Assembly (NCBI GenBank): GCA_916610825.1 | Contig: OU744452.1 | Location: 7,100,021 to 7,164,020, forward strand | DNA: 64,000 bases | Source of the DNA: Haliclystus octoradiatus | Lineage: Eukaryota > Cnidaria > Staurozoa > Stauromedusae > Haliclystidae | Direction: 5' to 3' | Shown: piece after piece, positions 15,690 through 47,323 of the stretch | Position numbering within the stretch: position 1 is the first letter of the stretch | Layout of the letters: each line of letters opens with the position of its first letter | Translations under genes and position numbers: made by a program | The notes under the pieces: generated by a model | The model's database searches: none | Told to the model about the DNA's origin: nothing | The model's input: only the letters and a program-made list of their open reading frames with translations

Positions 15690-16105
15690 AGCATACTTTT
15701 GGAAGAAAATGTCAGAAAACAAAATTGTTAAAGTGATTATCACAAGTGTATCGTTTTTTCAAGATATATGGATTATTTCACTAAAGATAATTGCCATATA
15801 TGCAAAATAGAATTTGCTAACCAAAATCAGTTTCTGCTACATTAAAAGGAATACTATACTAACTCTGACAAAGATCTGTGATGGTTGAGAAGGGAATAAG
15901 CTGCGCAGTATTTGACTGGTGATATTTGTAGATGTCAAATATAGGAAGAATTTTTGTTAATCAGACATGTAGAAGAGATTTCACAGATGTTAAAAACCTA
16001 AATAATAGCATTCAGCTAGTAGTCTAGATTACGCTACTCCTAAGAAAACATTACGATCCAATTTAGAGCAATTCAATTGGAGAAAAGATCGCTTTTATAG
16101 AAGTA
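15690..16105 (+). pseudogene. Left half of a zinc-finger-type coding region interrupted by the array
   Basis: Frames with several stops read CHICKIEFANQNQFLLH (a C2H2-like finger, about 15793-15842), then CRCQI...EEFLLIRHVEE (about 15928-15975), CRRDFTDVKNLNNSIQ (about 15967-16015), and DYATPKKTLRSNLEQFNWRKDRFYRS ending at the array edge. The frame continues directly in the right flank at 62196 (IAGIDYSWQP). The fingers degrade (missing last His, internal stops), so the gene was already dead or has decayed since. It resembles multi-copy uncharacterised zinc-binding proteins of invertebrates; that is from memory and untested. Confidence 0.55.
16097..16105. repeat. Left copy of 9-bp direct repeat flanking the array (probable target duplication)
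   Basis: ATAGAAGTA directly abuts unit 1. The same 9 bp abut unit 14 at 62187-62195, and joining the flanks through one copy restores an open reading frame. Confidence 0.65.
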
Positions 16106-16472
16106 CTAGCAATGAGTGTAGTCCATAATGGACCTTCTATGATAAAACTTTCAGATCACTTATAATTAAACAATTAACTAAGCTGACTATCGCTGTATAA
16201 TACGGAGTCTAAACTCTGGAGGAGAACATGAGACACAATACGCATTGAAACGATGTAGCATTAATCGATACAACTTAATCATTCCTTTAATAAAAATTTA
16301 ATTTATTTCACATCAATTGAGTCGATTGAAATGTATAATTTAACGTAGCTATATCTGCATAGAAAAACTTTATTTTATGTGCTGAAAGGAGGCCAGAACA
16401 CATTAATTATTATAAATTACAAATACTCAGTCAAATTTCGACATCTGAAACTATCTATAAAAAATCACTTCA

Positions 16473-16550
16473 AATCCGATCCGATCCGAAGACCTAAAAT
16501 ATTAACCCGAATCCGACCCGATACGATCGGATCGCGTTCGGTTCGGATTC
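16473..16550. repeat. GC-richer (ATCCG)n / (CGGAT)n foldback segment, present in every unit (unit 1 shown)
   Basis: AATCCGATCCGATCCGAA at the left is roughly complementary to GATCGGATCGCG...TTCGGTTCGGATT at the right, so the strand can fold back. It lies about 370 bp after each unit start, and variants between units fall in both arms. Confidence 0.6.
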
Positions 16551-16794
16551 ATAGATCTTTATGCAATATATACAACACTAATGTGGTGTTTACAAAATAA
16601 CGCCGTCAAAGTGTGGCCAGTGAAACTCGTGGCATTGAATGCGATACATTCATTATTAAATTAATTTAGCTTCAACAAGACACATGGTCCACTGATTTCT
16701 GTTATTAACATGATCAAACGATATCTTTTGTTAATTAAAAATGATTTACTGCTTCATACTAAAAAAAATTAGAAAAATCGTTGATAAAAGGTTG

Positions 16795-16860
16795 CCGAAT
16801 GGTGGTTTTGAACTGACGACCCTGAAATTATTATACCAGAGCATTAACCAATTAGCCACT
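16795..16860 (-). ncRNA. tRNA-like Pol III element, unit 1
   Basis: The minus strand has a box A (TGGCTAATTGG) and box B (GTTCAAAAC) at tRNA-like spacing, then T5 and T8 runs just downstream (16778-16761) that could stop Pol III. The anticodon arm is partly foldable, but acceptor, D and T stems are poorly paired, so a functional tRNA is unlikely. A tRNA-derived SINE head or a tRNA-like pseudogene with a live promoter are both possible. Both boxes intact. Confidence 0.5.
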
Positions 16861-17737
16861 GCGTTACTTACTGATATCAGCGCTTTGACTGATATTATCA
16901 ACAAACCTACAGCTTCGACAACGTATTATTGAACAAGGCCGACCCACGCGCGTGTATTGAATTTCAAATTATATATATAAACTGAAAATATTATGATATG
17001 ATACTATATGAGCCTATATATTTTTGACCTTTGCAATCTCAGCAAGTACGCCTGTGATTTTCATGGCAGTCTATCAAAATACTAAGAGTTCTTTGAAAAT
17101 AAAATTTTATAAGTAAAAAAAAGGTCTGAAAAATTGGTCTGATAGTGGTTCTTGTTATCAAATTTTCCAGAATAATAGCATCAACATTCTTTTAAAAGGA
17201 AATAAAATTCTATAATAAATCGCTATACTAATTCGATATTGATATTATGTTACATCTTGTTGTCAATATTTCTACGCGCTATTTATAATACATTACAGAT
17301 GTCGAATGAAAGAAAAGATGATTATGAATAAATTAATTATTTTGATAGAAAACGAAAACAACTCATTTTGACAGATTCGTGATATGCATATTTATTCAGA
17401 ATTTATTGAAACGGACGCGATGGTTTATAGAGTGGAAATGTTTAGCGCAGCTTCAAAGATATAAAATGCCACAGCCGATGGTAATATTTAAATGCTCATG
17501 TTATGATGTCTGACGAAAAGGATAATTTACTATGTAGAAAATGAATCTACTTAACCATGCATTTGATCACGATATGAAATGATCATTTTTGTTTTCGAAT
17601 AAAAGACAATCTTTTTTTTTTTATTCTTATCGGGCGTACATTCTCCGTCGATAAAATATGATTGTTAACTTATTATTGATTGGTGTATTAACTCAGATAA
17701 CCCGCTATTATGTATTTAAATGTTGTTCGGAGATTAT

Positions 17738-17869
17738 GCCGCTCGTATAGTTTTTATTTGGATCTCATTTGGAAAATGGTAAGTTGTATTTTAATAAATA
17801 TTGTTTGCTATGATCGATTATTTCATGCAACCTTTTCACTTTTTATTTTTGTAACACAAGGTTTGTTAC
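17738..17869 (+). ncRNA. Candidate spliced-leader / Sm-class small nuclear RNA gene, unit 1
   Basis: A TATTTAAA box (17713-17720) lies 25 bp before the proposed start (GCCGCTCG). A 41-nt leader runs 17738-17778, ends GGAAAATG and is followed at once by the strong donor GTAAGT (17779). Then comes a stem-loop TTGC-t-ATGA / TCAT-GCAA (17805-17830, 9-nt loop), an Sm-like ATTTTTG (17845-17851), and a terminal hairpin GTAACA / TGTTAC (17851-17869, 7-nt loop). A weak TTTATT/AATAAA pairing could hold the donor in a first stem. Leader, GU donor, stem, Sm site and 3' hairpin is the order found in spliced-leader RNAs; several flatworm leaders also end in AUG. An ordinary exon with a chance downstream hairpin is the alternative. 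RNA ends are inferred. Confidence 0.45.
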
Positions 17870-19071
17870 ACTCATCCAAACTGTAATAACTATTTAAAAA
17901 TGTTTTTGAATTATGTTTTTGTGCTTTTAAATTCCAAGCAAAATTTTTGAACGCTGAAAATATTATAATTATTATTATTTATCACAAATCATACGCTCAA
18001 TTCAATTTAACTTTGTTAAATTTGATATACCTGAAATTAACTTTATTAAATGTTGATCAAAGATAATAACAATACATCGCTATTTTTATTCTCGAAGCTG
18101 TAGTAACATACTGTGTCTTATTCGTATAGCAAGTCAACAAAATGAAATTTTAATTTTAATCGATGCCTATAATTCCTTCGTTAATTATGGAAGCAAAATC
18201 TGAAAATAAATGGCTGCCTGCTCAAAACCAAATGATTCATATTTTTATATTAAATAATAAATTATAGAAATACTTTTGTGCAATGCCTTGATTAATTCTA
18301 AACTCTATAATTTTATACTGTAGACAGATAATCTATTCGAACTTTGAATATTTTTCGAATTGATCGAACGCCAACGTCATTTTGAAAATTCTTGAAAGTT
18401 AATTTGTTTTTATGCCCCGCGATAGATTATTCATTTCAAAACAGATTATTTGCTCAGTGTTCTCACAAATTATATATCAAAATAGCTTTTTTAAAAATGA
18501 AATGTTTTGTATCTCGATTTTGGTAAAAGTAATGAACGGCATTTTGTTTCATTATTAATTAAATTAAGACCTAAAGTCTCTTTAATTTCATAGCGTTGTG
18601 CCGCGCTATATGTATTGCTGATATCAACACTACATGAAATAGTTCTACGTTTCTTTGATTTCAAAACATATTTTGTCTGATACTGGTAATTCAATGTAAC
18701 TCAGTATTTCATATTGTTTTAATTATCATAAAACTGATTCAGTTTTAAGTTTCACTTGTTCAAACAATTTACACGCAGCTTTTAAATTCAAAGCAAAATA
18801 TTTTAGTTCTGGGGATTTCAATTTGAATTCGATTTGGCTGCCCGCTAGATTATCGACCTATGAAATTTTTCAAAATCTCTGAATTTTTTAATGCAAGGAT
18901 ATCAAATAAATTATCAGATGAAGTATATTATTTTAAAACAACGTCATAGACCCATACTTTTCATATAACAAATTTGTTACTGTACACGGTTATCTCGACA
19001 CAAATGTTTGCATAATTTCCCGACAACGGATTATCCGTATTATATCGCCAGTAAGATGTACATAAGTCGCG

Positions 19072-19127
19072 GACAGACACAGAAATATCGAAATATCGAA
19101 ATATCGAAATATCGAAATATAGAAATA
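19072..19127 (+). repeat. Unit-tail simple repeat GAAATATC (unit 1 shown)
   Basis: Each unit ends in one to five copies of CGAAATAT after GCGGACAGACACA. Many units add a module of about 50 bp with ATATATAAACAGACAGTATT. Copy numbers differ between units, which explains most of the unit length variation. Confidence 0.8.
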
Positions 19128-19818
19128 CTAGCAATGAGTGTAGTCCATAATGGACCTTCTATGATAAAACTTTAAGATCACTTATAATTAAACAATTGAC
19201 TAAGCTTTCTATCGCTGTATAATACGGAGTATGAACTCTGGAGGAGAACATGAGACACAATACGCATTGAAACGATGTAGCATTAATCAATACATCTTAA
19301 TCATTCCTTTAATAAAAATTTAATTTATTTCACATCAATTGAGTCGATTGAAATGTATAATTTAACGTAGCTTTGTCTACATAGAAAAACTTTATTTTAT
19401 GTGTTGAAAGGAAGCCAGAACACATTAATTATTATAAATTACAAATACTCAGTCAAATTTCGAAATCTGAAACTATCCATAAAAAATCACTTCAAATCCG
19501 ATCAGATCCGAAGACCTAAAATATTAACCCGAATCTGACCCGACACGATCGGATCGCGTTCGGTTCGAATTCATAAATCTTTATTGCAATATATACAACA
19601 CTAATGTGGTGTTCACAAAATAACGCCGTCAAGGTGTGGCCGGTCAAACTCGTGGCATTGCATGCAATATATTCAGTATTAAATTAATTTAGCTTCGACA
19701 AAACACATGGTCCACTAATTTCTGTTATTAACATGATCAAGCGATATCTTTTGTTAATTAACAATGATTTACTGCTTCATATTAAAAAAAAAATCAGAAA
19801 AATCGTTGATAAAAACTG

Positions 19819-19885
19819 CCGAATAGCGGATGTGAACTTACGACCCTGATTTTGTAATACCAGAGCATTAACCAATGAGCCAACC
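19819..19885 (-). ncRNA. tRNA-like element, unit 2
   Basis: Box A TGGCTCATTGG intact; box B altered (GTTCACATC). Confidence 0.4.
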
Positions 19886-20762
19886 CCTTACTTACTGTTG
19901 TACGCGCCTTGACTGTACTAATCAACAAACCTATTGCTTCGACAACGTATTACTGAACAAGGCGACAGCGCGTGTATTGATTTCAAACTATATATATAAT
20001 CTGATAATATTATGATATGACAGTATATGAGCCTATATATTTTTGATCTTTGCAATCTCAGCAAGTAGGCCTGTGATTTTCATGGCAGTCTATCAAAATA
20101 CTAAGAGTTCGTTGAAAATAAAATTTTAAAAGTAAACAAAAGATGTGAAATGTTGACCTCATAGTGCTTCTTGTTATCAAATTTTCCAGACTAATAGCAT
20201 CAACATTCTTTTAAAAGGAAATAAAATTCTATAATAAATCGCTATACTAATTCGATATTGATATTATGTTACATCTTGTTGTCAATATTTCTACGCGCTA
20301 TTTATAATACATTACAGATGTCGAATGAAAGGAAAGACGATTATGAATAAATTAATTATTTTGATAGAAAAACGAAAACAACTCATTTTGCCAGATTCGT
20401 GATATGCATATTTATTCAGAATTTATTGAAACGGACGCGATGGTTTATAGAGTGGAAATGTTTAGAGCAGCTTCAAAGATATAAAATACCATAGCCGATG
20501 GTAATATTTAAATGCTCATGTTATGATGTCTGACGAAAAGGATAATTTACTATGTAGAAAATGAATCTACTTTACCATGCATTTGATCACGATATGAAAT
20601 GATCATTTTTGTCAGAATTATTTCGAATAAAAGACAATCTTTATTTTATTCTTATCGGGCGTAATTTCTCCTTCGATAAAATATGGTTGTTAACTTACTA
20701 TTGATTGGTGTAATAACTCAGAGAACCCGCTATTATGTATTTAAATGTTTTTCGGAGATTAT

Positions 20763-20894
20763 GCCGCTCGAATAGTTTTTATTTGGATCTCATTTGGAAA
20801 ATGGTAAGTTGTATTTTAATAAATATTGTTTGCTATGATCGATTATTTCGTGCAACCTTTTCACTTTTTATTTTTGTTACACAAGGTTTGTTAC
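20763..20894 (+). ncRNA. Candidate SL/snRNA-like gene, unit 2
   Basis: The only copy with a leader change (CTCGAATAG). Stem II has TCGT, which keeps pairing by a U-G wobble; the terminal hairpin has one mismatch (GTTACA). Possibly the weakest copy. Confidence 0.38.
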
Positions 20895-22874
20895 ACTCAT
20901 CCAAACTGTATTAACTATTTAAAAATGTTTTTGAATTATGTTTTTGTGCTTTTAAATTCAAAGCAAAATTTTTGAACGCTGAAAATATTATAATTATTAT
21001 TATTTATCACAAATCATACGCTCAATTCAATTTAACTTTGTTAAATTTGATATACCTGAAATTAACTTTATTAAATGTTGATCAAAGATAATAACAAGAC
21101 ATCGCTATTTTTATTCTCGAAACTGTAGTAACATACTGTGTCTTATTCGTATAGCAAGTCAACAAAATGAAATTTTAATATTAATCGATGCCAGTATAAT
21201 TCCTTCGTTAATTATGGAAGCAAAATCTGAAAATAAAAGCCTTGCTGCTTAAAACCAAATGATTCGTTTTTTTATATTAAATAATAAATTATAAAAATAC
21301 TTTTGTGCAATGCCTTGATTAATTCTAAACTCTATAATTTTAGACTGTAGACAGATAATCTCTTCGAACTTTGAATATTTTTCGAAATAGTCGAACGCCA
21401 ACGCCAATTTGAAAATTCTTGCAAATTAATTTGTTTTTAAGCCCCGCGATAGATTATTCATTTCAAAACAGATTTTTTGCTCAGTGTTCTCACAAATTAT
21501 GTATCAAAATAGCCTTTTTAAAAGTGAAATGTTTTATATCTCGATTTTGAGAAAAGTAATGAACGGCATTTTGTTTCATTAATAAATTAAATTAAGACCT
21601 CAAGTCTCTTTAATTTCATAGCGTTTGTGCCGCGCTATATGTATTGCTAATATCAACAATACATGAAATATGTCTACGTTTCTTTGATTTCAAAACATAT
21701 TTTGTCTGGCCTAGTTATACTGGTAATTCAATGTAATTCAGTATTTCGTATTGTTTTAATTATCATAAAACTGATTCAGTTTCAAGTTTCACTTGTTCAA
21801 ACAATTTACACGCAGCTTTTAAATTCAAAGCAAAATATTTTTGTTCTGGAGATTTCAATTTGAAGTCGATTTGGCTGCCCGCTAGATTATCGACCTATGA
21901 AATTTTTCAAAATCTCTGAATTTTTTAATGCAATGATATCAATTAAAATATCAGATGAAGTATATTATTTTAAAACAACTCCATAGACCCATACTTTTCA
22001 TACAACAAATTTGTTACTGTACACGGTTATCTCGACACAAATGTTTGCATAATTTCCCGACAACGGATTATCCGTATTATATCACCAGTAAGACGTACAT
22101 AAGTCGCGGACAGACACAGAAATATCGAAATATCGAAATATAGAAATATTGTGATATATAAACAGACAGTATTATGTATACTAGCAATGAGTGTGGTCCA
22201 TAATGGACCTTCTATGATAAAAACTTTCAGATCACCTATAATTAAACAATTGACTAAGCTGACTATCGCTGTAAAATACGGAGTATGAACTCTGTAGTAG
22301 AACATCATGAGACACAATACGCATTGAAACGATGTAGCATTAATCAATACATCTTAATCATTCCTTTAATAAAAATTTAATTTATTTCAGATCAATTGAG
22401 TCGATTGAAATGTATAATTTAACGTAGCTATATCTACATAGAAAAACTTTATTTTATGTGTTGAAAGGAAACCAGAACACATTAATTATTATAAATTACA
22501 AATACTCAGTCAAATTTCGAAATCTGAAACTATCCATAAAAAATCACTTCAAATCCGATCCGATCCAAAGACCTAAAATATTAACCCGAATCTGACCGGA
22601 TACGATCGGATCGCGTTCGGTTCGAATTCATAAATCTTTATTGCAATATATACAGCAACAATGTGGTGTTCACAAAATAACGACGTCAAGGTGTGGCCGG
22701 TCAAACTCGTGGCATTGCATGCAATATATTCAATATTAAATTGATTTAGCTTCGACAAGACACATGGTCCACTAATTTCTGTTATTAACATGATCAAACG
22801 ATATCTTTTGTTAATTAACAATGATTTACTGCTTCATATTAAAAAAAAATCAGAAAAATCGTTGATAAAAATTG

Positions 22875-22940
22875 CCGAATGGCGGATTTGGACTGACGAC
22901 CCTGATATTGTAATACCAGGGCATTAACCAATCGGCCACT
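22875..22940 (-). ncRNA. tRNA-like element, unit 3
   Basis: Box A TGGCCGATTGG fits the consensus; box B altered (GTCCAAATC). Confidence 0.4.
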
Positions 22941-23819
22941 ACCTTACTTTTTGTTATCGGTGCTTTAACTGAAGTGATCAACAAAATTACTGCTTCGACA
23001 ACGTATTATTGAACAAGGCCGACCCACGCGCGTGTATTGAAAATCAAATTATATATATAATCTGAAAATATTATGATATGATAGTAAATGAGCCTATATA
23101 TTTTTGATCTTTGCAATCTCAGCAAGCAGGCCTGTGATTTTCATGGCAGTCTATCAAAATAACAAGATTTCGTTGAAAATAAAATTTTGTAAGTAGAAAA
23201 AAGAAGTGAAAAATTGGCCTGATAGTGCTTCTTGTTATCAAATTTTCCAGAATAATAGCATCAACATTCTTTTAAAAGGAAATGAAGTTCTATAATAAAT
23301 CGCTATACTAATTTGATATTGATATCATGTTACATCTTGTTGTCAATATTTCTACGCGCTATTTATAATACATTACAGATGTCGAATGAAAGAAAAGACG
23401 ATTATGAATAAATTAATTATTTTGATAGAAAAATGAAAACAACTCATTTTGCCAGATTCGTGATATGCATATTTATTCAGAATTTATTGAAACGGACGCG
23501 ATGGTTTATAGAGTGGAAATGTTTAGTGCAGCTTCAAAGATATAAAATATCATAGCTGATGGTAGTATTTAAATGCTCATGTTATGATGTGTGATGAAAA
23601 TGATTTACTTATAGAAAATGAATCTACTTTACCTTGCATTTGATCGCGATATGAAATGATCATTTTTGTCAGAATTATTTCGAATAAAAAGCAATTTATA
23701 TTATATTCTTATCGGGCTCACATTCTCCTTCGATAAAATATGGTTGTTAACTTATTATTGATTGGTGTATTAACTCAGAGAACCCGCTATTATGTATTTA
23801 AATGTTGTTCGGAGATTAT

Positions 23820-23951
23820 GCCGCTCGTATAGTTTTTATTTGGATCTCATTTGGAAAATGGTAAGTAGTATTTTAATAAATATTGTTTGCTATGATCGAT
23901 TATTTCATGCAACCTTTTCACTTTTTATTTTTGTAACACAAGGTTTGTTAC
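23820..23951 (+). ncRNA. Candidate SL/snRNA-like gene, unit 3
   Basis: Leader unchanged; donor context GTAAGTAG; both stems intact. Confidence 0.43.
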
Positions 23952-25897
23952 ACTCATCCAAACTGTATTAACTATTTAAAAATGTTTTTGAATTATGTTT
24001 TTGTGCTTTTAAATTCAAAGCAAAATTTTTGAACGCTGAAAATATTATAATTATTATTATTTATCACAAATCATACGCTCAATTCAATTTAACTTTGTTA
24101 AATTTGATATACCTGAAATTAACTTTATTAAATGTTGATCAAAGATAATAACAAGACATCGCTATTTTTATTCTCGAAACTGTAGTAACATACTGTTTCT
24201 TATTCGTATAGCAAGTCAACACAATGAAATTTTAATTTTAATCGATGCCTATAATTCCTTCGTTAATTATGGAAGCAAAATCTGAAAATAAAAGCCTTGC
24301 TGCTCAAAACCAAATGATTCGTTTTTTTATATTAAATAATAAATTATAGAAATACTTTTGTGCAATGCCTTGATTAATTCTAAACTCTATAATTTTAGAC
24401 TGTAGACAGATAATCTCTTCGAACTTTGAATATTTTTCGAATTAGTCGAACGCCAACGTCAATTTGAAAATTCTTGCAAATTAATTTGTTTTTAAGCCCC
24501 GCGATAGATTATTCATTTCAAAACAGATTGTTTGCTCAATGTTCTCACAAATTATATATCAAAATAGCCTTTTTAAAAGTGAAATGTTTTATATCTCCAT
24601 TTTGAGAAAAGTAATGAACGGCATTTTGTTTCATTAATAAATTAAATTAAGACCTCAAGTCTCTATATGTATTGCTGATATCAACACTACATGAAATAGG
24701 TCTACGTTTCTTTGATTTCAAAAAAATATTTTGTTTGGCCTAGTTATACTGGTAATTCAATGTAATTCAGTATTTCGTATTGTTTTAATTATCATAAAAC
24801 TGATTCAGTTTCAAGTTTCACTTGTTCAAACAATTTACACGCAGCTTTTAAATTCAAAGCAAAATATTTTTGTTCTGGAGAATTCAATTAGAAGTCGATT
24901 TGGCTGCCCGCTAGATTATCGACCTATGAAATTTTTCAAAATCTCTGAATTTTTTAATGTAATGATATCAAATAAAATATCAGATGAAGTATATTATTTT
25001 AAAACAACGTCATAGACCCATACTTTTCATACAACAAATTTGTTACTGTACACGGTTATCTCGACACAAATGTTTGCATAATTTCCCGACAACGGATTAT
25101 CCGTATTATTTCGCCAGTAAGACGTACATAAGTCGCGGACAGACACAGAAATATAGTGATATATAAACAGACAGTATTATGTATATAAGTGATAAGTGAT
25201 AGAAATACTAGCAATGAGTGTAGTCCATTATGGACCTTCTATGATAAAAATTTCAGATCACTTATAATTAAACAATTGACTAAGCTGACTATCGCTGTAT
25301 AATACGGAGTATGAACTCTGGAGGAGAACATGAGACACAATACGCATTGAAACGATGTAGCATTAATCAATACATCTTAATCATTCTTTTAATAAAAATT
25401 TAATTTATTTCACATCAATTGAGTCGATTGAAATGTATAATTTAACGTAGCTTTGTCTACATAGAAAAACTTTATTTTATGTGCTGAAAGGAAACCAGAA
25501 CACATTAATTATTATGAATTACAAATATTCAGTCAAATTTCGAAATATGAAACTATCCATAAAAAATCACTTCAAATCCGATCCGATCCGAAGACCTAAT
25601 ATATTAAAACGAATCTGACCCGATACGATCAAATCGTGTTCGGTTCGGATTGATAAATCTTCATTGCAATACAACACTAATGTGGTGTTCACAAAATAAC
25701 GCCGTCAAGGTGAGGCCGGTCAAACTTGTGGCATCGCATGTAATATATTCAATATTAAATTAATTTAGCTTCGACAAGACACATGGTCCACTAATTTCTG
25801 TTATTAACATGATCAAACGATATCTTTTGTTAATTAACAATGATTTACTGCTTCATATTAAAAAAAAATCATAAAAATCGTTGATAAAAAAAAGTTA

Positions 25898-25963
25898 CCG
25901 AATAGCGGATTTGAACTTACGACCCTGATATTGTAATACCAGAGCATTAACCAATGAGCCAAC
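25898..25963 (-). ncRNA. tRNA-like element, unit 4
   Basis: Both boxes intact (TGGCTCATTGG, GTTCAAATC); T7 run downstream. Confidence 0.48.
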
Positions 25964-26840
25964 CCCTTACTTACTGTAGTACGCGCTTTGACTGTACTAA
26001 TCAACAAACCTGCTGCTTCGACAAAGTATTACTGAACAAGGCGACAGCGCGTGTATTGATTTCAAACTATATATATAATCTGAAAATATTATGATATGAT
26101 AGTATATGAGCCTATATATTTTTGATCTTTGCAATCTCAGCAAGTAGGCCTGTGATTTTCATGCCAGTCTATCAAAATACTAAGAGTTCGTTGAAAATAA
26201 AATTTTAAAAGTAAACAAAAGATGTGAAATGTTGACCTCATAGTGCTTCTTGTTATCAAATTTTCCAGAATAATAGCATCAACATTCTTTTAAAAGGAAA
26301 TAAAATTCTATAATAAATCGCTATACTAATTCGATATTGATATTATGTTACATCTTGTTGTCAATATTTCTACGCGCTATTCTTAATACATTACAGATGT
26401 CGAATGAAAGGAAAGATGATTATGAATAAATTAATTATTTTGATAGAAAAACGAAAACAACTCATTTTGCCAGATTCGTGATATGCATATTTATTCAGAA
26501 TTTATTGAAACGGACACGATGGTTTAAAGAGTTGAAATGTTTAGTGCAGCTTCAAAGATATAAAATACCACAGCCGATGGTAATAATTAAATGCTCATGT
26601 TATGATGTCTGACGAAAAGGCTCATTTACTATGTAGAAAATGAATCTACTTTACCATGCATTTGATCACGATATGAAATGATCATTTTTGTCAGAATTAT
26701 TTCGAATAAAAGACAATCTTTATTTTATTCTTATCGGGCGTACATTCTCCTTCGATAAAATATGGTTGTTACTTATTATTGATTGGTGTATTAACTCAGA
26801 GAACCCGCTATTATGTATTTAAATGTTGTTCGGAGATTAT

Positions 26841-26972
26841 GCCGCTCGTATAGTTTTTATTTGGATCTCATTTGGAAAATGGTAAGTTGTATTTTAATAA
26901 ATATTGTTTGCTATGATCGATTATTTCATGCAACCTTTTCGCTTTTTATTTTTGTAACACAAGGTTTGTTAC
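26841..26972 (+). ncRNA. Candidate SL/snRNA-like gene, unit 4
   Basis: Leader, donor and stems as unit 1; one A-to-G change in the single-stranded linker before the Sm-like site. Confidence 0.43.
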
Positions 26973-28974
26973 ACTCATCCAAACTGTATTAACTATTTAA
27001 AAATGTTTTTAAATTATGTTTTTGTACTTTTAAATTCAAAGTAAAATTTTTGTACGCTGAAAATATTATAATTATTATTATTTATCACAAATCATACGCT
27101 CAATTCAATTTAACTTTGTTAAATTTGATATACCTGAAATTTACTTTATTAAATGTTGATCAACGATAATAACAAGACACCGCTATTTTTATTCTCGAAA
27201 CTGTAGTAACATACTGTGTCTTATTCGTATAGCAAGTCAACAAAATGAAATTTTAATTTTTATCGATGCCTATAATTCCTTCGTTAATTATGGAAGCAAA
27301 ATCTGAAAATAAATGGCTGCCTGCTCAAAACCAAATGATTTATATTTTTATATTAAATAATAAATTATAGAAATACTTTTGTGCAATGCCTTGATTGATT
27401 CTAAACTCTATAATTTTAAACTGTAGACAGATAATCTATTCGAACTTTGAATATTTTTCGAATTGATCGAACGCCAACGTCATTTTGAAAATTCTTGCAA
27501 GTTAATTTGTTTTTATGCCCCGCGATAGATTATTCATTTCAAAACAGATTGTTTGCTCAGTGTTCTCACAAATTATATATCAAAATAGCCTTTCTAAAAG
27601 TGAAATGTTTTGTATCTCGATTCTGGTAAAAGTAATGAACGGCATTTTGTTTCATTAATAAATTAAAGACCTAAAGTCTCTTTAATTTTCATAGCGTTTG
27701 ACCAGCGCTATATGTATTGCGGATATCAACACTACATGAAATAAGTCTACGTTTCTTTGATTTCAAAAAAATATTTTGTTTGGCCTAGTTATACTGGTAA
27801 TTCAATGTAATTCAGTATTTCGTATTGTTTTAATTATCATAAAACTGATTCTTTTTCAAGTTTCACTTGCTCAAACAATTTACACGCAGCTTTTAAATTC
27901 AAAGCAAAATATTTTTGTTCTGGGGATTTCAATTTGAATTCGATTTGGCTGCCCGCTAGATTATTGACCTATGAAATTTTTCAAAATCTCTGAATTTTTT
28001 AATGCAACGATATCAAATAAAATATCAGATGAAGTATATTATTTTAAAACAACGTCATAGACCCATACTTTTCATACAACAAATTTGTTACTGTACACGG
28101 TTATCTCGACACAAATGTTTGCATAATTTCCCGACAACGGATTATCCGTATTATATCGCCAGTAAGACGTACATAAGTCGCGGACAGACACAGAAATATC
28201 GAAATATCGAAATATCGAAATATAGAAATATTGTGATATATAAACAGACAGTATTATGTATATAAGTGATAAGTGATAGAAATACTAGCAATGAGTGTAG
28301 TCCATTATGGACCTTCTATGATAAAAATTTCAGATCACTTATAATTAAACAATTGACTAAGCTGACTATCGCTGTATAATACGGAGTATGAACTCTGGAG
28401 GAGAACATGAGACACAATACGCATTGAAACGATGTAGCATTAATCAATACATCTTAATCATTCTTTTAATAAAAATTTAATTTATTTCACATCAATTGAG
28501 TCGATTGAAATGTCTAATTTAACGTAGCTTTGTCTACATAGAAAAACTTTATTTTATGTGCTGAAAGGAAACCAGAACACATTAATTATTATGAATTACA
28601 AATATTCAGTCAAATTTCGACATATGAAACTATCCATAAAAAATCACTTCAAATCCGATCCGATCCGAAGACCTAATATATTAAAACGAATCTGACCCGA
28701 TACGATCAAATCGTGTTCGGTTCGGATTGATAAATCTTCATTGCAATACAACACTAATGTGGTGTTCACAAAATAACGCCGTCAAGGTGAGGCCGGTCAA
28801 ACTTGTGGCATCGCATGTAATATATTCAATATTAAATTAATTTAGCTTCGACAAGACACATGGTCCACTAATTTCTGTTATTAACATGATCAAACGATAT
28901 CTTTTGTTAATTAACAATGATTTACTGCTTCATATTAAAAAAAAATCAGAAAAATCGTTGATAAAAAAAAGTTA

Positions 28975-29040
28975 CCGAATAGCGGATTTGAGCTTACGAC
29001 CCTGATATTGTAATACCAGAGCATTAACCAATGAGCCAAC
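28975..29040 (-). ncRNA. tRNA-like element, unit 5
   Basis: Box A intact; box B altered (GCTCAAATC). Confidence 0.4.
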
Positions 29041-29918
29041 CCCTTACTTACTGTAGTACGCGCTTTGACTGTACTAATCAACAAACCTGCTGCTTCGACA
29101 ACGTATTACTGAACAAGGCGACAGCGCGTGTATTGATTTCAAACTATATATATAATCTGAAAATATTATGATATGATAGTATATGAGCCTATATATTTTT
29201 GATCTTTGCAATCTCAGCAAGTAGGCCTGTGATTTTCATGCCAGTCTATCAAAATACTAAGAGTTCGTTGAAAATAAAATTTTAAAAGTAAACAAAAGAT
29301 GTGAAATGTTGACCTCATAGTGCTTCTTGTTATCAAATTTTCCAGAATAATAGCATCAACATTCTTTTAAAAGGAAATAAAATTCTATAATAAATCGCTA
29401 TACTAATTCGATATTGATATTATGTTACATCTTGTTGTCAATATTTCTACGCGCTATTTATAATACATTACAGATGTCGAATGAAAGAAAAGATGATTAT
29501 GAATAAATTAATTATTTTGATAGAAAAACGAAAACAACTCATTTTGCCAGATTCGTGATATGCATATGTATTCAGAATTTATTGAAACGGAAGCGATGGT
29601 TTATAGAGTGGAAATGTTTAGTGCAGCTTCAAAGATATAAAATACCACAGCCGATGGTAATATTTAAATGCTCATGTAATGATGTCTGACGAAAAGGATA
29701 ATTTACTATGTAGAAAATGAATCTACTTTACCGTGCATTTGATCACGATATGAAATGATCATTTTTGTCAGAATTATTTCGAATAAAAGACAATCTTTAT
29801 TTTATTCTTATCGGGCGTACATTCTCCTTCGATAAAATATGGTTGTTAACTTATTATTGATTGGTGTATTAACTCAGAGAACCCGCTATTATGTATTTAA
29901 ATGTTGTTCGGAGATTAT

Positions 29919-30050
29919 GCCGCTCGTATAGTTTTTATTTGGATCTCATTTGGAAAATGGTAAGTTGTATTTTAATAAATATTGTTTGCTATGATCGATT
30001 ATTTCATGCAACCTTTTCGCTTTTTATTTTTGTAACACAAGGTTTGTTAC
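29919..30050 (+). ncRNA. Candidate SL/snRNA-like gene, unit 5
   Basis: Same sequence class as unit 4. Confidence 0.43.
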
Positions 30051-32022
30051 ACTCATCCAAACTGTATTAACTATTTAAAAATGTTTTTAAATTATGTTTT
30101 TGTGCTTTTAAATTCAAAGCAAAATTTTTGTACGCTGAAAATATTATAATTATTATTATTTATCACAAATCATACGCTCAATTCAATTTAACTTTGTTAA
30201 ATTTGATATACCTGAAATTTACTTTATTAAATGTTGATCAACGATAATAACAAGACACCGCTATTTTTATTCTCGAAACTGTAGTAACATACTGTGTCTT
30301 ATTCGTATAGCAAGTCAACAAAATGAAATTTTAATTTTTATCGATGCCTATAATTCCTTCGTTAATTATGGAAGCAAAATCTGAAAATAAATGGCTGCCT
30401 GCTCAAAACCAAATGATTCATATTTTTATATTAAATAATAAATTATAGAAATACTTTTGTGCAATGCCTTGATTGATTCTAAACTCTATAATTTTAAACT
30501 GTAGACAGATAATCTATTCGAACTTTGAATATTTTTCGAATTGATCGAACGCCAACGTCATTTTGAAAATTCTTGCAAGTTAATTTGTTTTTATGCCCCG
30601 CGATAGATTATTCATTTCAAAACAGATTGTTTGCTCAGTGTTCTCACAAGTTATATATCAAAATAGCCTTTTTAAGAGTGAAATGTTTTGTATCTCGATT
30701 TTGGTAAAAGTAATGAACGGCATTTGGTTTCATTAATAAATTAAATTAAGACCTCAAGTCTCTTTAATTTCATAGCGTTTGTGCCGCGCTATATGTATTG
30801 CAGATATCAACACTACATGAAATATGTCTACGTTTCTTTGATTTCAAAACATATTTTGTCTGGCCTAGTTATACTGGTAATTCAATGTAATTCAGTATTT
30901 CGTATTGTTTTAATTATCATAAAACTGATTCAGTTTCAAGTTTCACTTGTTCAAACAATTTACACGCAGCTTTTAAATTCAAAGCAAAATATTTTTGTTC
31001 TGGAGAATTCAATTAGAAGTCGATTTGGCTGCCCGCTAGATTATCGACCTATGAAATTTTTCAAAATCTCTGAATTTTTTAATGTAATGATATCAAATAA
31101 AATATCAGATGAAGTATATTATTTTAAAACAACGTCATAGACCCATACTTTTCATACAACAAATTTGTTACTGTACACGGTTATCTCGACACAAATGTTT
31201 GCATAATTTCCCGACAACGGATTATCCGTATTATTTCGCCAGTAAGACGTACATAAGTCGCGGACAGACACAGAAATATAGTGATATATAAACAGACAGT
31301 ATTATGTATATAAGTGATAAGTGATAGAAATACTAGCAATGAGTGTAGTCCATTATGGACCTTCTATGATAAAAATTTCAGATCACTTATAATTAAACAA
31401 TTGACTAAGCTGACTATCGCTGTATAATACGGAGTATGAACTCTGGAGGAGAACATGAGACACAATACGCATTGAAACGATGTAGCATTAATCAATACAT
31501 CTTAATCATTCTTTTAATAAAAATTTAATTTATTTCACATCAATTGAGTCGATTGAAATGTATAATTTAACGTAGCTTTGTCTACATAGAAAAACTTTAT
31601 TTTATGTGCTGAAAGGAAACCAGAACACATTAATTATTATGAATTACAAATATTCAGTCAAATTTCGAAATATGAAACTATCCATAAAAAATCACTTCAA
31701 ATCCGATCCGATCCGAAGACCTAATATATTAAAACGAATCTGACCCGATACGATCAAATCGTGTTCGGTTCGGATTGATAAATCTTCATTGCAATACAAC
31801 ACTAATGTGGTGTTCACAAAATAACGCCGTCAAGGTGAGGCCGGTCAAACTTGTGGCATCGCATGTAATATATTCAATATTAAATTAATTTAGCTTCGAC
31901 AAGACACATGGTCCACTAATTTCTGTTATTAACATGATCAAACGATATCTTTTGTTAATTAACAATGATTTACTGCTTCATATTAAAAAAAAATCAGAAA
32001 AATCGTTGATAAAAAAAAGTTA

Positions 32023-32088
32023 CCGAATAGCGGATTTGAACTTACGACCCTGATATTGTAATACCAGAGCATTAACCAATGAGCCAAC
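32023..32088 (-). ncRNA. tRNA-like element, unit 6
   Basis: Both boxes intact. Confidence 0.48.
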
Positions 32089-32966
32089 CCCTTACTTACT
32101 GTAGTACGCGCTTTGACTGTACTAATCAACAAACCTGCTGCTTCGACAAAGTATTACTGAACAAGGCGACAGCGCGTGTATTGATTTCAAACTATATATA
32201 TAATCTGAAAATATTATGATATGATAGTATATGAGCCTATATATTTTTGATCTTTGCAATCTCAGCAAGTAGGCCTGTGATTTTCATGCCAGTCTATCAA
32301 AATACTAAGAGTTCGTTGAAAATAAAATTTTAAAAGTAAACAAAAGATGTGAAATGTTGACCTCATAGTGCTTCTTGTTATCAAATTTTCCAGAATAATA
32401 GCATCAACATTCTTTTAAAAGGAAATAAAATTCTATAATAAATCGCTATACTAATTCGATATTGATATTATGTTACATCTTGTTGTCAATATTTCTACGC
32501 GCTATTTATAATACATTACAGATGTCGAATGAAAGAAAAGATGATTATGAATAAATTAATTATTTTGATAGAAAAACGAAAACAACTCATTTTGCCAGAT
32601 TCGTGATATGCATATGTATTCAGAATTTATTGAAACGGAAGCGATGGTTTATAGAGTGGAAATGTTTAGTGCAGCTTCAAAGATATAAAATACCACAGCC
32701 GATGGTAATATTTAAATGCTCATGTAATGATGTCTGACGAAAAGGATAATTTACTATGTAGAAAATGAATCTACTTTACCGTGCATTTGATCACGATATG
32801 AAATGATCATTTTTGTCAGAATTATTTCGAATAAAAGACAATCTTTATTTTATTCTTATCGGGCGTACATTCTCCTTCGATAAAATATGGTTGTTAACTT
32901 ATTATTGATTGGTGTATTAACTCAGAGAACCCGCTATTATGTATTTAAATGTTGTTCGGAGATTAT

Positions 32967-33098
32967 GCCGCTCGTATAGTTTTTATTTGGATCTCATTTG
33001 GAAAATGGTAAGTTGTATTTTAATAAATATTGTTTGCTATGATCGATTATTTCATGCAACCTTTTCGCTTTTTATTTTTGTAACACAAGGTTTGTTAC
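32967..33098 (+). ncRNA. Candidate SL/snRNA-like gene, unit 6
   Basis: Same sequence class as unit 4. Confidence 0.43.
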
Positions 33099-35070
33099 AC
33101 TCATCCAAACTGTATTAACTATTTAAAAATGTTTTTAAATTATGTTTTTGTGCTTTTAAATTCAAAGCAAAATTTTTGTACGCTGAAAATATTATAATTA
33201 TTATTATTTATCACAAATCATACGCTCAATTCAATTTAACTTTGTTAAATTTGATATACCTGAAATTTACTTTATTAAATGTTGATCAACGATAATAACA
33301 AGACACCGCTATTTTTATTCTCGAAACTGTAGTAACATACTGTGTCTTATTCGTATAGCAAGTCAACAAAATGAAATTTAAATTTTTATCGATGCCTATA
33401 ATTCCTTCGTTAATTATGGAAGCAAAATCTGAAAATAAATGGCTGCCTGCTCAAAACCAAATGATTCATATTTTTATATTAAATAATAAATTATAGAAAT
33501 ACTTTTGTGCAATGCCTTGATTGATTCTAATTTCTATAATTTTAAACTGTAGACAGATAATCTATTCGAACTTTGAATATTTTTCGAATTGATCGAACGC
33601 CAACGTCATTTTGAAAATTCTTGCAAGTTAATTTGTTTTTATGCCCCGCGATAGATTATTCATTTCAAAACAGATTGTTTGCTCAGTGTTCTCACAAGTT
33701 ATATATCAAAATAGCCTTTTTAAGAGTGAAATGTTTTGTATCTCGATTTTGGTAAAAGTAATGAACGGCATTTGGTTTCATTAATAAATTAAATTAAGAC
33801 CTCAAGTCTCTTTAATTTCATAGCGTTTGTGCCGCGCTATATGTATTGCAGATATCAACACTACATGAAATATGTCTACGTTTCTTTGATTTCAAAACAT
33901 ATTTTGTCTGGCCTAGTTATACTGGTAATTCAATGTAATTCAGTATTTCGTATTGTTTTAATTATCATAAAACTGATTCAGTTTCAAGTTTCACTTGTTC
34001 AAACAATTTACACGCAGCTTTTAAATTCAAAGCAAAATATTTTTGTTCTGGAGAATTCAATTAGAAGTCGATTTGGCTGCCCGCTAGATTATCGACCTAT
34101 GAAATTTTTCAAAATCTCTGAATTTTTTAATGTAATGATATCAAATAAAATATCAGATGAAGTATATTATTTTAAAACAACGTCATAGACCCATACTTTT
34201 CATACAACAAATTTGTTACTGTACACGGTTATCTTGACACAAATGTTTGCATAATTTCCCGACAACGGATTATCCGTATTATTTCGCCAGTAAGACGTAC
34301 ATAAGTCGCGGACAGACACAGAAATATAGTGATATATAAACAGACAGTATTATGTATATAAGTGATAAGTGATAGAAATACTAGCAATGAGTGTAGTCCA
34401 TTATGGACCTTCTATGATAAAAATTTCAGATCACTTATAATTAAACAATTGACTAAGCTGACTATCGCTGTATAATACGGAGTATGAACTCTGGAGGAGA
34501 ACATGAGACACAATACGCATTGAAACGATGTAGCATTAATCAATACATCTTAATCATTCTTTTAATAAAAATTTAATTTATTTCACATCAATTGAGTCGA
34601 TTGAAATGTATAATTTAACGTAGCTTTGTCTACATAGAAAAACTTTATTTTATGTGCTGAAAGGAAACCAGAACACATTAATTATTATGAATTACAAATA
34701 TTCAGTCAAATTTCGAAATATGAAACTATCCATAAAAAATCACTTCAAATCCGATCCGATCCGAAGACCTAATATATTAAAACGAATCTGACCCGATACG
34801 ATCAAATCGTGTTCGGTTCGGATTGATAAATCTTCATTGCAATACAACACTAATGTGGTGTTCACAAAATAACGCCGTCAAGGTGAGGCCGGTCAAACTT
34901 GTGGCATCGCATGTAATATATTCAATATTAAATTAATTTAGCTTCGACAAGACACATGGTCCACTAATTTCTGTTATTAACATGATCAAACGATATCTTT
35001 TGTTAATTAACAATGATTTACTGCTTCATATTAAAAAAAAATCAGAAAAATCGTTGATAAAAAAAAGTTA

Positions 35071-35136
35071 CCGAATAGCGGATTTGAACTTACGACCCTG
35101 ATATTGTAATACCAGAGCATTAACCAATGAGCCAAC
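35071..35136 (-). ncRNA. tRNA-like element, unit 7
   Basis: Both boxes intact. Confidence 0.48.
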
Positions 35137-36013
35137 CCCTTACTTACTGTAGTACGCGCTTTGACTGTACTAATCAACAAACCTGCTGCTTCGACAAAGT
35201 ATTACTGAACAAGGCGACAGCGCGTGTATTGATTTCAAACTATATATATAATCTGAAAATATTATGATATGATAGTATATGAGCCTATATATTTTTGATC
35301 TTTGCAATCTCAGCAAGTAGGCCTGTGATTTTCATGCCAGTCTATCAAAATACTAAGAGTTCGTTGAAAATAAAATTTTAAAAGTAAACAAAAGATGTGA
35401 AATGTTGACCTCATAGTGCTTCTTGTTATCAAATTTTCCAGAATAATAGCATCAACATTCTTTTAAAAGGAAATAAAATTCTATAATAAATCGCTATACT
35501 AATTCGATATTGATATTATGTTACATCTTGTTGTCAATATTTCTACGCGCTATTCTTAATACATTACAGATGTCGAATGAAAGGAAAGATGATTATGAAT
35601 AAATTAATTATTTTGATAGAAAAACGAAAACAACTCATTTTGCCAGATTCGTGATATGCATATTTATTCAGAATTTATTGAAACGGACACGATGGTTTAA
35701 AGAGTTGAAATGTTTAGTGCAGCTTCAAAGATATAAAATACCACAGCCGATGGTAATAATTAAATGCTCATGTTATGATGTCTGACGAAAAGGCTCATTT
35801 ACTATGTAGAAAATGAATCTACTTTACCATGCATTTGATCACGATATGAAATGATCATTTTTGTCAGAATTATTTCGAATAAAAGACAATCTTTATTTTA
35901 TTCTTATCGGGCGTACATTCTCCTTCGATAAAATATGGTTGTTACTTATTATTGATTGGTGTATTAACTCAGAGAACCCGCTATTATGTATTTAAATGTT
36001 GTTCGGAGATTAT

Positions 36014-36145
36014 GCCGCTCGTATAGTTTTTATTTGGATCTCATTTGGAAAATGGTAAGTTGTATTTTAATAAATATTGTTTGCTATGATCGATTATTTC
36101 ATGCAACCTTTTCGCTTTTTATTTTTGTAACACAAGGTTTGTTAC
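36014..36145 (+). ncRNA. Candidate SL/snRNA-like gene, unit 7
   Basis: Same sequence class as unit 4. Confidence 0.43.
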
Positions 36146-38147
36146 ACTCATCCAAACTGTATTAACTATTTAAAAATGTTTTTAAATTATGTTTTTGTAC
36201 TTTTAAATTCAAAGTAAAATTTTTGTACGCTGAAAATATTATAATTATTATTATTTATCACAAATCATACGCTCAATTCAATTTAACTTTGTTAAATTTG
36301 ATATACCTGAAATTTACTTTATTAAATGTTGATCAACGATAATAACAAGACACCGCTATTTTTATTCTCGAAACTGTAGTAACATACTGTGTCTTATTCG
36401 TATAGCAAGTCAACAAAATGAAATTTTAATTTTTATCGATGCCTATAATTCCTTCGTTAATTATGGAAGCAAAATCTGAAAATAAATGGCTGCCTGCTCA
36501 AAACCAAATGATTCATATTTTTATATTAAATAATAAATTATAGAAATACTTTTGTGCAATGCCTTGATTGATTCTAAACTCTATAATTTTAAACTGTAGA
36601 CAGATAATCTATTCGAACTTTGAATATTTTTCGAATTGATCGAACGCCAACGTCATTTTGAAAATTCTTGCAAGTTAATTTGTTTTTATGCCCCGCGATA
36701 GATTATTCATTTCAAAACAGATTGTTTGCTCAGTGTTCTCACAAATTATATATCAAAATAGCCTTTCTAAAAGTGAAATGTTTTGTATCTCGATTCTGGT
36801 AAAAGTAATGAACGGCATTTTGTTTCATTAATAAATTAAAGACCTAAAGTCTCTTTAATTTTCATAGCGTTTGACCAGCGCTATATGTATTGCGGATATC
36901 AACACTACATGAAATAAGTCTACGTTTCTTTGATTTCAAAAAAATATTTTGTTTGGCCTAGTTATACTGGTAATTCAATGTAATTCAGTATTTCGTATTG
37001 TTTTAATTATCATAAAACTGATTCTTTTTCAAGTTTCACTTGCTCAAACAATTTACACGCAGCTTTTAAATTCAAAGCAAAATATTTTTGTTCTGGGGAT
37101 TTCAATTTGAATTCGATTTGGCTGCCCGCTAGATTATTGACCTATGAAATTTTTCAAAATCTCTGAATTTTTTAATGCAACGATATCAAATAAAATATCA
37201 GATGAAGTATATTATTTTAAAACAACGTCATAGACCCATACTTTTCATACAACAAATTTGTTACTGTACACGGTTATCTCGACACAAATGTTTGCATAAT
37301 TTCCCGACAACGGATTATCCGTATTATATCGCCAGTAAGACGTACATAAGTCGCGGACAGACACAGAAATATCGAAATATCGAAATATCGAAATATAGAA
37401 ATATTGTGATATATAAACAGACAGTATTATGTATATAAGTGATAAGTGATAGAAATACTAGCAATGAGTGTAGTCCATTATGGACCTTCTATGATAAAAA
37501 TTTCAGATCACTTATAATTAAACAATTGACTAAGCTGACTATCGCTGTATAATACGGAGTATGAACTCTGGAGGAGAACATGAGACACAATACGCATTGA
37601 AACGATGTAGCATTAATCAATACATCTTAATCATTCTTTTAATAAAAATTTAATTTATTTCACATCAATTGAGTCGATTGAAATGTCTAATTTAACGTAG
37701 CTTTGTCTACATAGAAAAACTTTATTTTATGTGCTGAAAGGAAACCAGAACACATTAATTATTATGAATTACAAATATTCAGTCAAATTTCGACATATGA
37801 AACTATCCATAAAAAATCACTTCAAATCCGATCCGATCCGAAGACCTAATATATTAAAACGAATCTGACCCGATACGATCAAATCGTGTTCGGTTCGGAT
37901 TGATAAATCTTCATTGCAATACAACACTAATGTGGTGTTCACAAAATAACGCCGTCAAGGTGAGGCCGGTCAAACTTGTGGCATCGCATGTAATATATTC
38001 AATATTAAATTAATTTAGCTTCGACAAGACACATGGTCCACTAATTTCTGTTATTAACATGATCAAACGATATCTTTTGTTAATTAACAATGATTTACTG
38101 CTTCATATTAAAAAAAAATCAGAAAAATCGTTGATAAAAAAAAGTTA

Positions 38148-38213
38148 CCGAATAGCGGATTTGAACTTACGACCCTGATATTGTAATACCAGAGCATTAA
38201 CCAATGAGCCAAC
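38148..38213 (-). ncRNA. tRNA-like element, unit 8
   Basis: Both boxes intact, unlike its duplication partner in unit 5. Confidence 0.48.
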
Positions 38214-39091
38214 CCCTTACTTACTGTAGTACGCGCTTTGACTGTACTAATCAACAAACCTGCTGCTTCGACAACGTATTACTGAACAAGGCGACAGCGC
38301 GTGTATTGATTTCAAACTATATATATAATCTGAAAATATTATGATATGATAGTATATGAGCCTATATATTTTTGATCTTTGCAATCTCAGCAAGTAGGCC
38401 TGTGATTTTCATGCCAGTCTATCAAAATACTAAGAGTTCGTTGAAAATAAAATTTTAAAAGTAAACAAAAGATGTGAAATGTTGACCTCATAGTGCTTCT
38501 TGTTATCAAATTTTCCAGAATAATAGCATCAACATTCTTTTAAAAGGAAATAAAATTCTATAATAAATCGCTATACTAATTCGATATTGATATTATGTTA
38601 CATCTTGTTGTCAATATTTCTACGCGCTATTTATAATACATTACAGATGTCGAATGAAAGAAAAGATGATTATGAATAAATTAATTATTTTGATAGAAAA
38701 ACGAAAACAACTCATTTTGCCAGATTCGTGATATGCATATGTATTCAGAATTTATTGAAACGGAAGCGATGGTTTATAGAGTGGAAATGTTTAGTGCAGC
38801 TTCAAAGATATAAAATACCACAGCCGATGGTAATATTTAAATGCTCATGTAATGATGTCTGACGAAAAGGATAATTTACTATGTAGAAAATGAATCTACT
38901 TTACCGTGCATTTGATCACGATATGAAATGATCATTTTTGTCAGAATTATTTCGAATAAAAGACAATCTTTATTTTATTCTTATCGGGCGTACATTCTCC
39001 TTCGATAAAATATGGTTGTTAACTTATTATTGATTGGTGTATTAACTCAGAGAACCCGCTATTATGTATTTAAATGTTGTTCGGAGATTAT

Positions 39092-39223
39092 GCCGCTCGT
39101 ATAGTTTTTATTTGGATCTCATTTGGAAAATGGTAAGTTGTATTTTAATAAATATTGTTTGCTATGATCGATTATTTCATGCAACCTTTTCGCTTTTTAT
39201 TTTTGTAACACAAGGTTTGTTAC
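39092..39223 (+). ncRNA. Candidate SL/snRNA-like gene, unit 8
   Basis: Same sequence class as unit 4. Confidence 0.43.
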
Positions 39224-41177: not shown

Positions 41178-41243
41178 CCGAATGGCGGATTTGGACTGAC
41201 GACCCTGATATTGTAATACCAGGGCATTAACCAATCGGCCACT
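41178..41243 (-). ncRNA. tRNA-like element, unit 9
   Basis: Box A fits; box B altered (GTCCAAATC), as in units 3 and 11. Confidence 0.4.
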
Positions 41244-42124
41244 ACCTTACTTTTTGTTATCGGTGTTTTAACTGAAGTGATCAACAAAATTACTGCTTCG
41301 ACAACGTATTATTGAACAAGGCCGACCCACGCGCGTGTATTGAAAATCAAATTATATATATAATCTGAAAATATTATGATATGATAGTAAATGAGCCTAT
41401 ATATTTTTGATCTTTGCAATCTCAGCAAGCAGGCCTGTGATTTTCATGGCAGTCTATCAAAATAACAAGATTTCGTTGAAAATAAAATTTTGTAAGTAAA
41501 AAAAAGAAGTGAAAAATTGGCCTGATAGTGCTTCTTGTTATCAAATTTTGCAGAATAATAGCATCAACATTCTTTTAAAAGGAAATGAAGTTCTATAATA
41601 AATCGCTATACTAATTTGATATTGATATCATGTTACATCTTGTTGTCAATATTTCTACGCGCTATTTATAATACATTACAGATGTCGAATGAAAGAAAAG
41701 ACGATTATGAATAAATTAATTATTTTGATAGAAAAATGAAAACAACTCATTTTGCCAGATTCGTGATATGCATATTTATTCAGAATTTATTGAAACGGAC
41801 ACGATGGTTTATAGAGTGGAAATGTTTAGTGCAGCTTCAAAGATATAAAATATCATAGCTGATGGTAGTATTTAAATGCTCATGTTATGATGTGTGATGA
41901 AAAGGATTTACTTATATAGAAAATGAATCTACTTTACCTTGCATTTGGTCGCGATATGAAATGATCATTTTTGTCAGAATTATTTCGAATAAAAAGCAAT
42001 TTATATTATATTCTTATCGGGCTCACATTCTCCTTCGATAAAATATGGTTGTTAACTTATTATTGATTGGTGTATTAACTCAGAGAACCCGCTATTATGT
42101 ATTTAAATGTTGTTCGGAGATTAT

Positions 42125-42256
42125 GCCGCTCGTATAGTTTTTATTTGGATCTCATTTGGAAAATGGTAAGTAGTATTTTAATAAATATTGTTTGCTATGA
42201 TCGATTATTTCATGCAACCTTTTCACTTTTTATTTTTGTAACACACGGTTTGTTAC
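42125..42256 (+). ncRNA. Candidate SL/snRNA-like gene, unit 9
   Basis: Donor context GTAAGTAG; one change in the terminal hairpin loop (ACGG), stem intact. Confidence 0.43.
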
Positions 42257-44223: not shown

Positions 44224-44289
44224 CCGAATGGCGGATTTGAACTGACGACCCACATATTGTGATGCCAGAGCATTAACCAATGAGCCACT
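44224..44289 (-). ncRNA. tRNA-like element, unit 10
   Basis: Both boxes intact. The anticodon-arm region differs from other units (GGCATCACAATATGTGGG on minus). Confidence 0.48.
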
Positions 44290-47257: not shown

Positions 47258-47323
47258 CCGAATGGCGGATTTGGACTGACGACCCTGATATTGTAATACC
47301 AGGGCATTAACCAATCGGCCACT
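47258..47323 (-). ncRNA. tRNA-like element, unit 11
   Basis: As unit 9: box A fits, box B altered. Confidence 0.4.

Follow-up and report, generated by a model that had tools for sequence, protein, structure and literature searches.

A spliced-leader-like RNA gene in every unit of a tandem array of a dispersed 3-kb repeat in Haliclystus octoradiatus

Each of the 14 units of a head-to-tail array on chromosome 7 of Haliclystus octoradiatus (class Staurozoa) contains a short segment that has the layout of a spliced-leader (SL) RNA gene, and this feature is real. The array fills much of the 64,000-nucleotide stretch of DNA that we analysed, which is called the window below. Judged from its letters, the segment is most readily read as an SL RNA gene present in each unit, and we regard function in that role as probable, with moderate confidence. 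A fuller proposal is put forward more tentatively, and we would give it slightly less than an even chance: a 3-kb mobile unit would have carried the genes for an AUG-donating leader to more than 700 places, and Haliclystus would use this leader in trans-splicing.

Within the window the segment of 160 bp is found 14 times, always on the + strand, free of gaps and 97.5-100% identical to copy 1, which bears out the number, length and positions given in the initial annotation. Spacing between units is 3021-3078 bp with the single exception of 6388 bp, where the twelfth unit holds an insertion (52201-55551) of about 3.35 kb. Every copy shows the same order of elements, namely a TATA-like box TATTTAAA, a stretch ending in GGAAAATG, GTAAGT, a bulged stem, ATTTTTG and a hairpin, and the claim that each of these is present in every unit held for 14 of 14. 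The features are located as follows.

16097..62189, + strand: head-to-tail array of 14 units, delimited by its left edge and the copy positions
17713, 20738, 23795, 26816, 29894, 32942, 35989, + strand: starts of TATTTAAA in copies 1-7
39067, 42100, 45147, 48180, 51227, 57615, 60670, + strand: starts of TATTTAAA in copies 8-14
16097..19118, + strand: unit 1 of the array, starting with ACTAGCAATGAG; solo copies end in ...TATTATGTATATAAGTGATA
17713..17720, + strand: TATA-like box TATTTAAA in the first copy, without change in all 36 independently sampled copies (see below)
17751..17778, + strand: proposed leader core TTTTTATTTGGATCTCATTTGGAAAATG, 4 of 1008 cells changed in the 36 copies; the initial annotation placed the leader start at 17738
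17776..17778, + strand: AUG at the leader end (AAAATG), a putative leader-supplied start, kept in 36 of 36 copies
17779..17784, + strand: predicted 5' splice donor GTAAGT, in 14 of 14 window copies, with GTAAG in 36 of 36 others
17805..17830, + strand: predicted bulged stem-loop 5' of the Sm-type site, with mixed support from 20 sequences
17845..17851, + strand: Sm-type site ATTTTTG, in 14 of 14 window copies and 28 of 36 sampled copies
17850..17870, + strand: 3' hairpin of 7 bp with a loop of 7, unchanged in 30 of 36 sampled copies

The 3' hairpin reads TGTAACA-CAAGGTT-TGTTACA and deviates by one stem base in unit 2 and by one loop base in units 9 and 11. Two finer observations of the initial annotation were likewise confirmed: units 2 and 13 share a stem change, A to G at the position that corresponds to 17825, where it faces U and still pairs as a wobble, and a change inside the proposed 41-nt leader occurs in unit 2 alone. 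In all 14 window copies ATTTTTG sits 66 nt past the donor, which is slightly long when compared to the default of the SLIDR program, where AT{4,6}G is expected 20-60 bp downstream. Among older or divergent relatives of the unit, the TATA-like box is often TATATAAA instead of TATTTAAA.

As an SL RNA gene, the segment would work in the following manner. The TATA promoter, presumably used by polymerase II, would start a short RNA of perhaps 100-135 nt, the first 28-41 nt of which would end in AUG at the GTAAG donor. Sm proteins would bind AUUUUUG and the hairpin would close the 3' end, so that a small snRNP may form. The donor would then be joined in trans to AG acceptors of other pre-mRNAs, such that TTTGGAAAATG, the leader end, would come to stand before the acceptors of many unrelated genes and the resulting mRNAs would gain a common capped leader able to supply the start codon.

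We compared this layout with chance expectation by shuffling the stretch after the donor. When the donor was held fixed, A-T4/6-G at the right distance together with an immediately adjoining 7-bp Watson-Crick hairpin arose in 8 of 10,000 dinucleotide shuffles, the criteria having been fixed after the sequence had been seen. An Sm-type site plus hairpin followed none of the 117 other GTRAG sites of the window. Folding of the 135-nt RNA as a whole is no better than that of shuffled sequences (163 of 200 shuffles fold at least as well). Pairing was then read from 20 sequences, mostly chosen through the leader or a leader-containing query. In this set the 3' hairpin is paired in 96.4% of cells, with one-sided wobble changes and no two-sided change; in the upstream stem, half of the sequences carry G-U for G-C at one pair and there is one two-sided change, while another pair fails in 12 of the 20. 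A pairing between leader and intron, GATC with GATC, is also predicted, and it hardly varies among sequences. The covariance check proposed initially gave no support: Rfam returned no match in the window at gathering scores and, at a relaxed E value, four chance-level matches, none of them a spliced leader. ARAGORN, run with the bacterial code, found no tRNA in the window.

The published genome of H. octoradiatus comprises 262 Mb in 33 scaffolds with a mitochondrial DNA of 18.3 kb, and is accompanied by polyA RNA-seq ERR9434978, according to the passages found in its description (PMC9975415). An exact 29-mer spanning the leader end and the donor occurs 731 times in this genome, 368 times on one strand and 363 times on the other, and its reversed control does not occur at all. 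Matches to the unit lie on all nine chromosome-sized contigs, and among the matches listed (the first 100 places) they lie singly or follow each other at intervals of about 3 kb. On its left side the window's array starts at 16097, which corresponds to unit position -1618. At expected 5' ends, 14 of the 16 stretches fetched carry ACTAGCAATGAG and two lack it; two of these 14 are preceded by another unit and the rest by other sequence. The 3' end lies at unit +1425 in 7 of the 14 loci compared, just before a shared ...TATTATGTATATAAGTGATA and variable tails, for example (AAGTGATA)n. The longest frame in the unit has 131 codons, and the four frames tested (92-131 codons) match no Pfam family; hence the SL-like segment is the first exon of no gene inside the unit. 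Long terminal or terminal inverted repeats of at least 16 nt were not found at the unit ends, and old copies of the repeat stand at about 74% identity. By its sequence, the 3-kb unit is probably a dispersed, non-coding, mobile repeat with fixed ends. It resembles other such repeats in its fixed ends, its hundreds of places and its tandem arrays, and differs from them in that it carries an SL-like gene. The SL-like gene has spread because it rides in this dispersed and probably mobile repeat, which sometimes forms tandem arrays. Of the initial SL RNA reading, the anatomy stands, and the array proves to be one cluster of a dispersed 3-kb repeat, which opens other readings of the segment. Within the repeat, window positions 19820-19890 (- strand) resemble tRNA-type A and B boxes by eye and are perhaps an old SINE.

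Variation was determined among all 14 window units, which were used unselected. Across the whole unit, the least variable 140-bp windows start -15 to 0 from TATTTAAA and contain 6 variable columns, where the median window contains 22; the 140-bp window at +20 to +160 has 7 variable columns, and 4% of windows have 7 or fewer. The low variation that had been claimed for the segment is thus present and is partly due to the youth of the copies. As an independent sample we took 38 copies outside the window, drawn from 40 matches listed, two of which lie in the window, and chosen by their similarity to window 18373-18572 (unit +660 to +860), that is, 660 bp downstream of the segment. Two aberrant copies were dropped (L099, 57% different, and L074, 12%), leaving 36. 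In these copies TATTTAAA shows 0 of 288 cells changed and the leader (+38 to +66) 4 of 1008, or 0.4%, compared to 1-2.5% in neighbouring segments. The donor hexamer is changed in 4 of 216 cells, always at its last base (A in four copies), and all 36 copies retain GTAAG and ATG. The Sm site reads ATTTTTG in 28 copies, ATTTTG in five, AATTTTG in two and CTTTTTG in one, such that the A-T4/5-G pattern is kept at 35 of 36. The Sm site is more variable (2.5-3.7%) than its surroundings and the intron half as variable as its surroundings; the changes at the Sm site are almost all of kinds that the Sm consensus tolerates. Over +20 to +160 as a whole, variation in the 36 copies is no lower than in other 140-bp windows (0.0171, median 0.0162). 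Among 26-nt windows the leader falls within the least variable 6%, though it is not the least variable of all. Because the copies are related to each other, we give no p-value for this comparison. The low-variation block begins near +38 (17751) in these copies, which does not support the leader length of 41 nt initially proposed; a leader of about 28 nt, or of anything up to 41 nt, is possible accordingly.

Older copies were sampled separately. In five divergent relatives, 5 of 32 columns of leader plus donor are changed against 153 of 278 elsewhere (p=2e-5). This result was discarded as a measure of constraint, given that one relative had been found by the leader and the others by a query containing it. 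A comparison of window copies with solo copies, from which we omitted two duplicates of window copies, is biased in the same sense, as this segment had served to select the solo copies. For a second sample of old copies we used a query without the segment and fetched 14 of the 45 matches listed, taken as old by how far the match runs; nine of the 14 were dropped for want of a usable segment and one was set aside as young, which left four copies. In these four, neither leader plus donor (8 of 92 cells changed against 80 of 583, p=0.24) nor the whole gene (89 of 735 cells changed, and 69 of 487 in the flanks, p=0.30) is significantly kept, and the element is conserved equally well in parts outside the SL-like gene. 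Young copies thus give an indication of selection that the old copies do not show. Some older copies have an extra 13-26 nt in the leader. In the older copies L155, L157, L161, L152, L120 and L122 the leader exon is longer and contains an internal repeat (TTATTTGGATCTCATTCTTCTTTCTTATTTGGATCTTA...); deletion between the repeats may have produced the short form, or duplication the long one.

These data bear on the possibility that the segment is a non-functional stretch of a young and homogeneous repeat, resembling an SL RNA gene by chance and showing low variation through recent spread. The likeness of young copies throughout their length, the lack of any special status of the segment in old copies sampled without bias and the unremarkable fold of the RNA are what such an explanation would predict. 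It does not account for the fact that TATA, ATG and GTAAG are changed in none of the 36 unbiased copies while their neighbours vary by 1-2.5%, nor for the location of the least variable 140-bp stretch among the 14 window units or the low frequency (8 in 10,000) at which Sm site and hairpin arise by chance, and we consider it distinctly unlikely. Another explanation holds that the segment encodes a different Sm-class small RNA, divergent and snRNA-like, whose 5' end is not donated and in which ATG and GTAAG are incidental. TATA box, Sm site and 3' hairpin would suit any RNA of this class; the intact GTAAG and ATG in 36 of 36 copies and the absence of an Rfam family match argue against it, and make it very improbable in our estimation.

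Promoters of snRNA genes in the same genome were also inspected. The regions upstream of seven U5 genes (seven of 33 pattern matches were fetched) have GCGCATGCG- and CCACT-type boxes in common, and no such boxes were found in the 3-kb unit, nor in U2. One pattern for U1 found no match in the genome. The U5 genes (L057-L063) form an array on C10 and are single or paired on C1, C4 and C11. A large tandem array of U2 snRNA genes, with 46 scored matches, is situated at about 14.58-14.83 Mb of C2 (L015-L044). In six different sequences U2 breaks off near the same place, after ...GGCTAAGATCAAG, into differing sequence, and this looks like site-specific insertion by a retrotransposon, possibly Keno.

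The main rival to an SL RNA gene is a promoter with a first coding exon that ends in ATG. This exon would belong to a gene of the repeat itself or to a host gene that the repeat has captured, and the later exons would have been lost or lie outside the unit. GTAAGT would then be a donor in cis, with an accidental Sm-like site and hairpin behind it. To see whether ribosomal-protein genes lack an ATG of their own, we read 16 gene starts out of 19 proteins queried. The ATG is in place in five of them (RPL15, RPL8, RPL17, RPS15A and RPS9); in eight the start follows an AG and falls at codon 2 or within it, and in three it comes later. A candidate cis first exon with its end at or close to ATG/GT (the slash marking the splice junction) lies shortly upstream in RPS4, RPL36A, RPL19 and RPL23 and, less clearly, in RPS18 and RPL3; for RPL37A, RPS23 and RPS8 none was seen within about 300 bp. 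The apparent first exon of RPS4 is TCAAAATG/GTGAGT and that of RPL36A likewise ends in AAAATG/GT. AAAATG/GT is consequently also a cis first-exon end in the Haliclystus genome, which feeds this rival. Since a longer cis intron explains the ribosomal-protein starts as well as a donated AUG does, they give no support for trans-splicing. A first exon would further agree with the dispersal of the repeat with fixed ends, in the way of a mobile element, and with the variable exon length among old copies, and any promoter with its first exon would be expected to fit the selection seen on TATA, leader and donor. Evidence to the contrary comes from the unit frames of 92-131 codons, which lack Pfam matches, and from the Sm site with its hairpin, which is rarely produced by shuffling and whose variants stay inside the consensus in 35 of 36 copies; in addition, a plain 5' UTR exon needs no conserved leader. 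Taken together, we hold a first exon to be rather unlikely.

For the preferred reading as an SL RNA gene, we also searched the genome for retroposed copies of leader-bearing mRNAs. A leader 25-mer followed by a base other than G was found at six places, the 16-mer followed by non-G at the same six, and the 19-mer followed by G and non-T at four, and none of these is a retrocopy. All ten distinct places were rejected as repeat units altered at the donor junction. The missing retrocopies are weak evidence, as such copies may be rare in the Haliclystus genome.

Known SL systems share some of the properties proposed here. The leaders of Hydra are not known to end in AUG. Hydra SL-A to SL-G resemble the Haliclystus segment in their medusozoan host and in being small Sm-site RNAs, which are 80 or 107 nt long and have leaders that measure 24 or 46 nt, and differ in their Sm motifs GAUUUUCGG, AAUUUUGA and AAUUUUCG, as given in the passages found (PMC7986045). 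Flatworm SL RNAs (Schistosoma, Echinococcus and others), of which one survey counts 312 loci in 24 species, have leaders of 31-36 nt ending in AUG/GU, an Sm-like site that is followed by a hairpin in several cases and, in several species, tandem repeats (PMC12582326). These leaders were compared with that of Haliclystus by layout. In contrast to Haliclystus, the flatworms belong to another phylum, and their RNAs measure 78-103 nt and have an interrupted Sm-like motif in place of A-U5-G; against their 312 loci stand the 731 exact leader-donor copies dispersed with the 3-kb repeat (PMC12582326). In passages of the chaetognath study a 36-nt leader is common to many mRNAs, and one leader sequence ends in TTTAAA and is by eye unlike the Haliclystus leader (PMC2481426).

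Hydrozoans, which like Haliclystus are placed within Medusozoa, trans-splice according to passages in two studies (PMC11067881; PMC7986045), and SL trans-splicing is described there and elsewhere as patchy across animals, with many origins versus frequent loss under debate (PMC12460157, PMC7986045). We found no report of trans-splicing in Staurozoa or of a spliced leader in Haliclystus in the literature searched, and any claim of novelty is limited to that literature; nor were the letters of the Haliclystus leader found there or in viral contigs. The matches listed for the broader cnidarian literature contain no mention of a spliced leader, and the passages found for Scyphozoa together with spliced leaders concern hydrozoans (PMC11067881). 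One study, on a diplonemid, mentions SL RNA genes along with a transposable element and dispersed copies or places. If our proposal is true, a transposable repeat would be the carrier of an RNA-processing gene used by its host, and its ride in a mobile repeat would constitute a route for multiplying SL genes. Trans-splicing would be extended within Cnidaria to a class without a report in the literature searched, and an AUG-donating leader would exist in another phylum than the flatworms. The reading is directly testable in the public polyA RNA-seq of the same species, ERR9434978.

The window holds several further features. Just right of the array, at 62810-63850 (+ strand), lies a reverse transcriptase fragment (PF00078, E=3.8e-19, in the frame 62810-63505); the next frame, 63506-63850, has no Pfam match, and the whole is probably a LINE remnant. 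At 5090-5340 a sequence of 123 bp is present in two perfect tandem copies, with one frame open on each strand. At 10205-11455 (- strand) lies an open reading frame of 416 codons (stop to stop) that matches no Pfam family and, close to its start, contains a stretch like a signal peptide; a fragment related to it by eye is located at 2737-3036.
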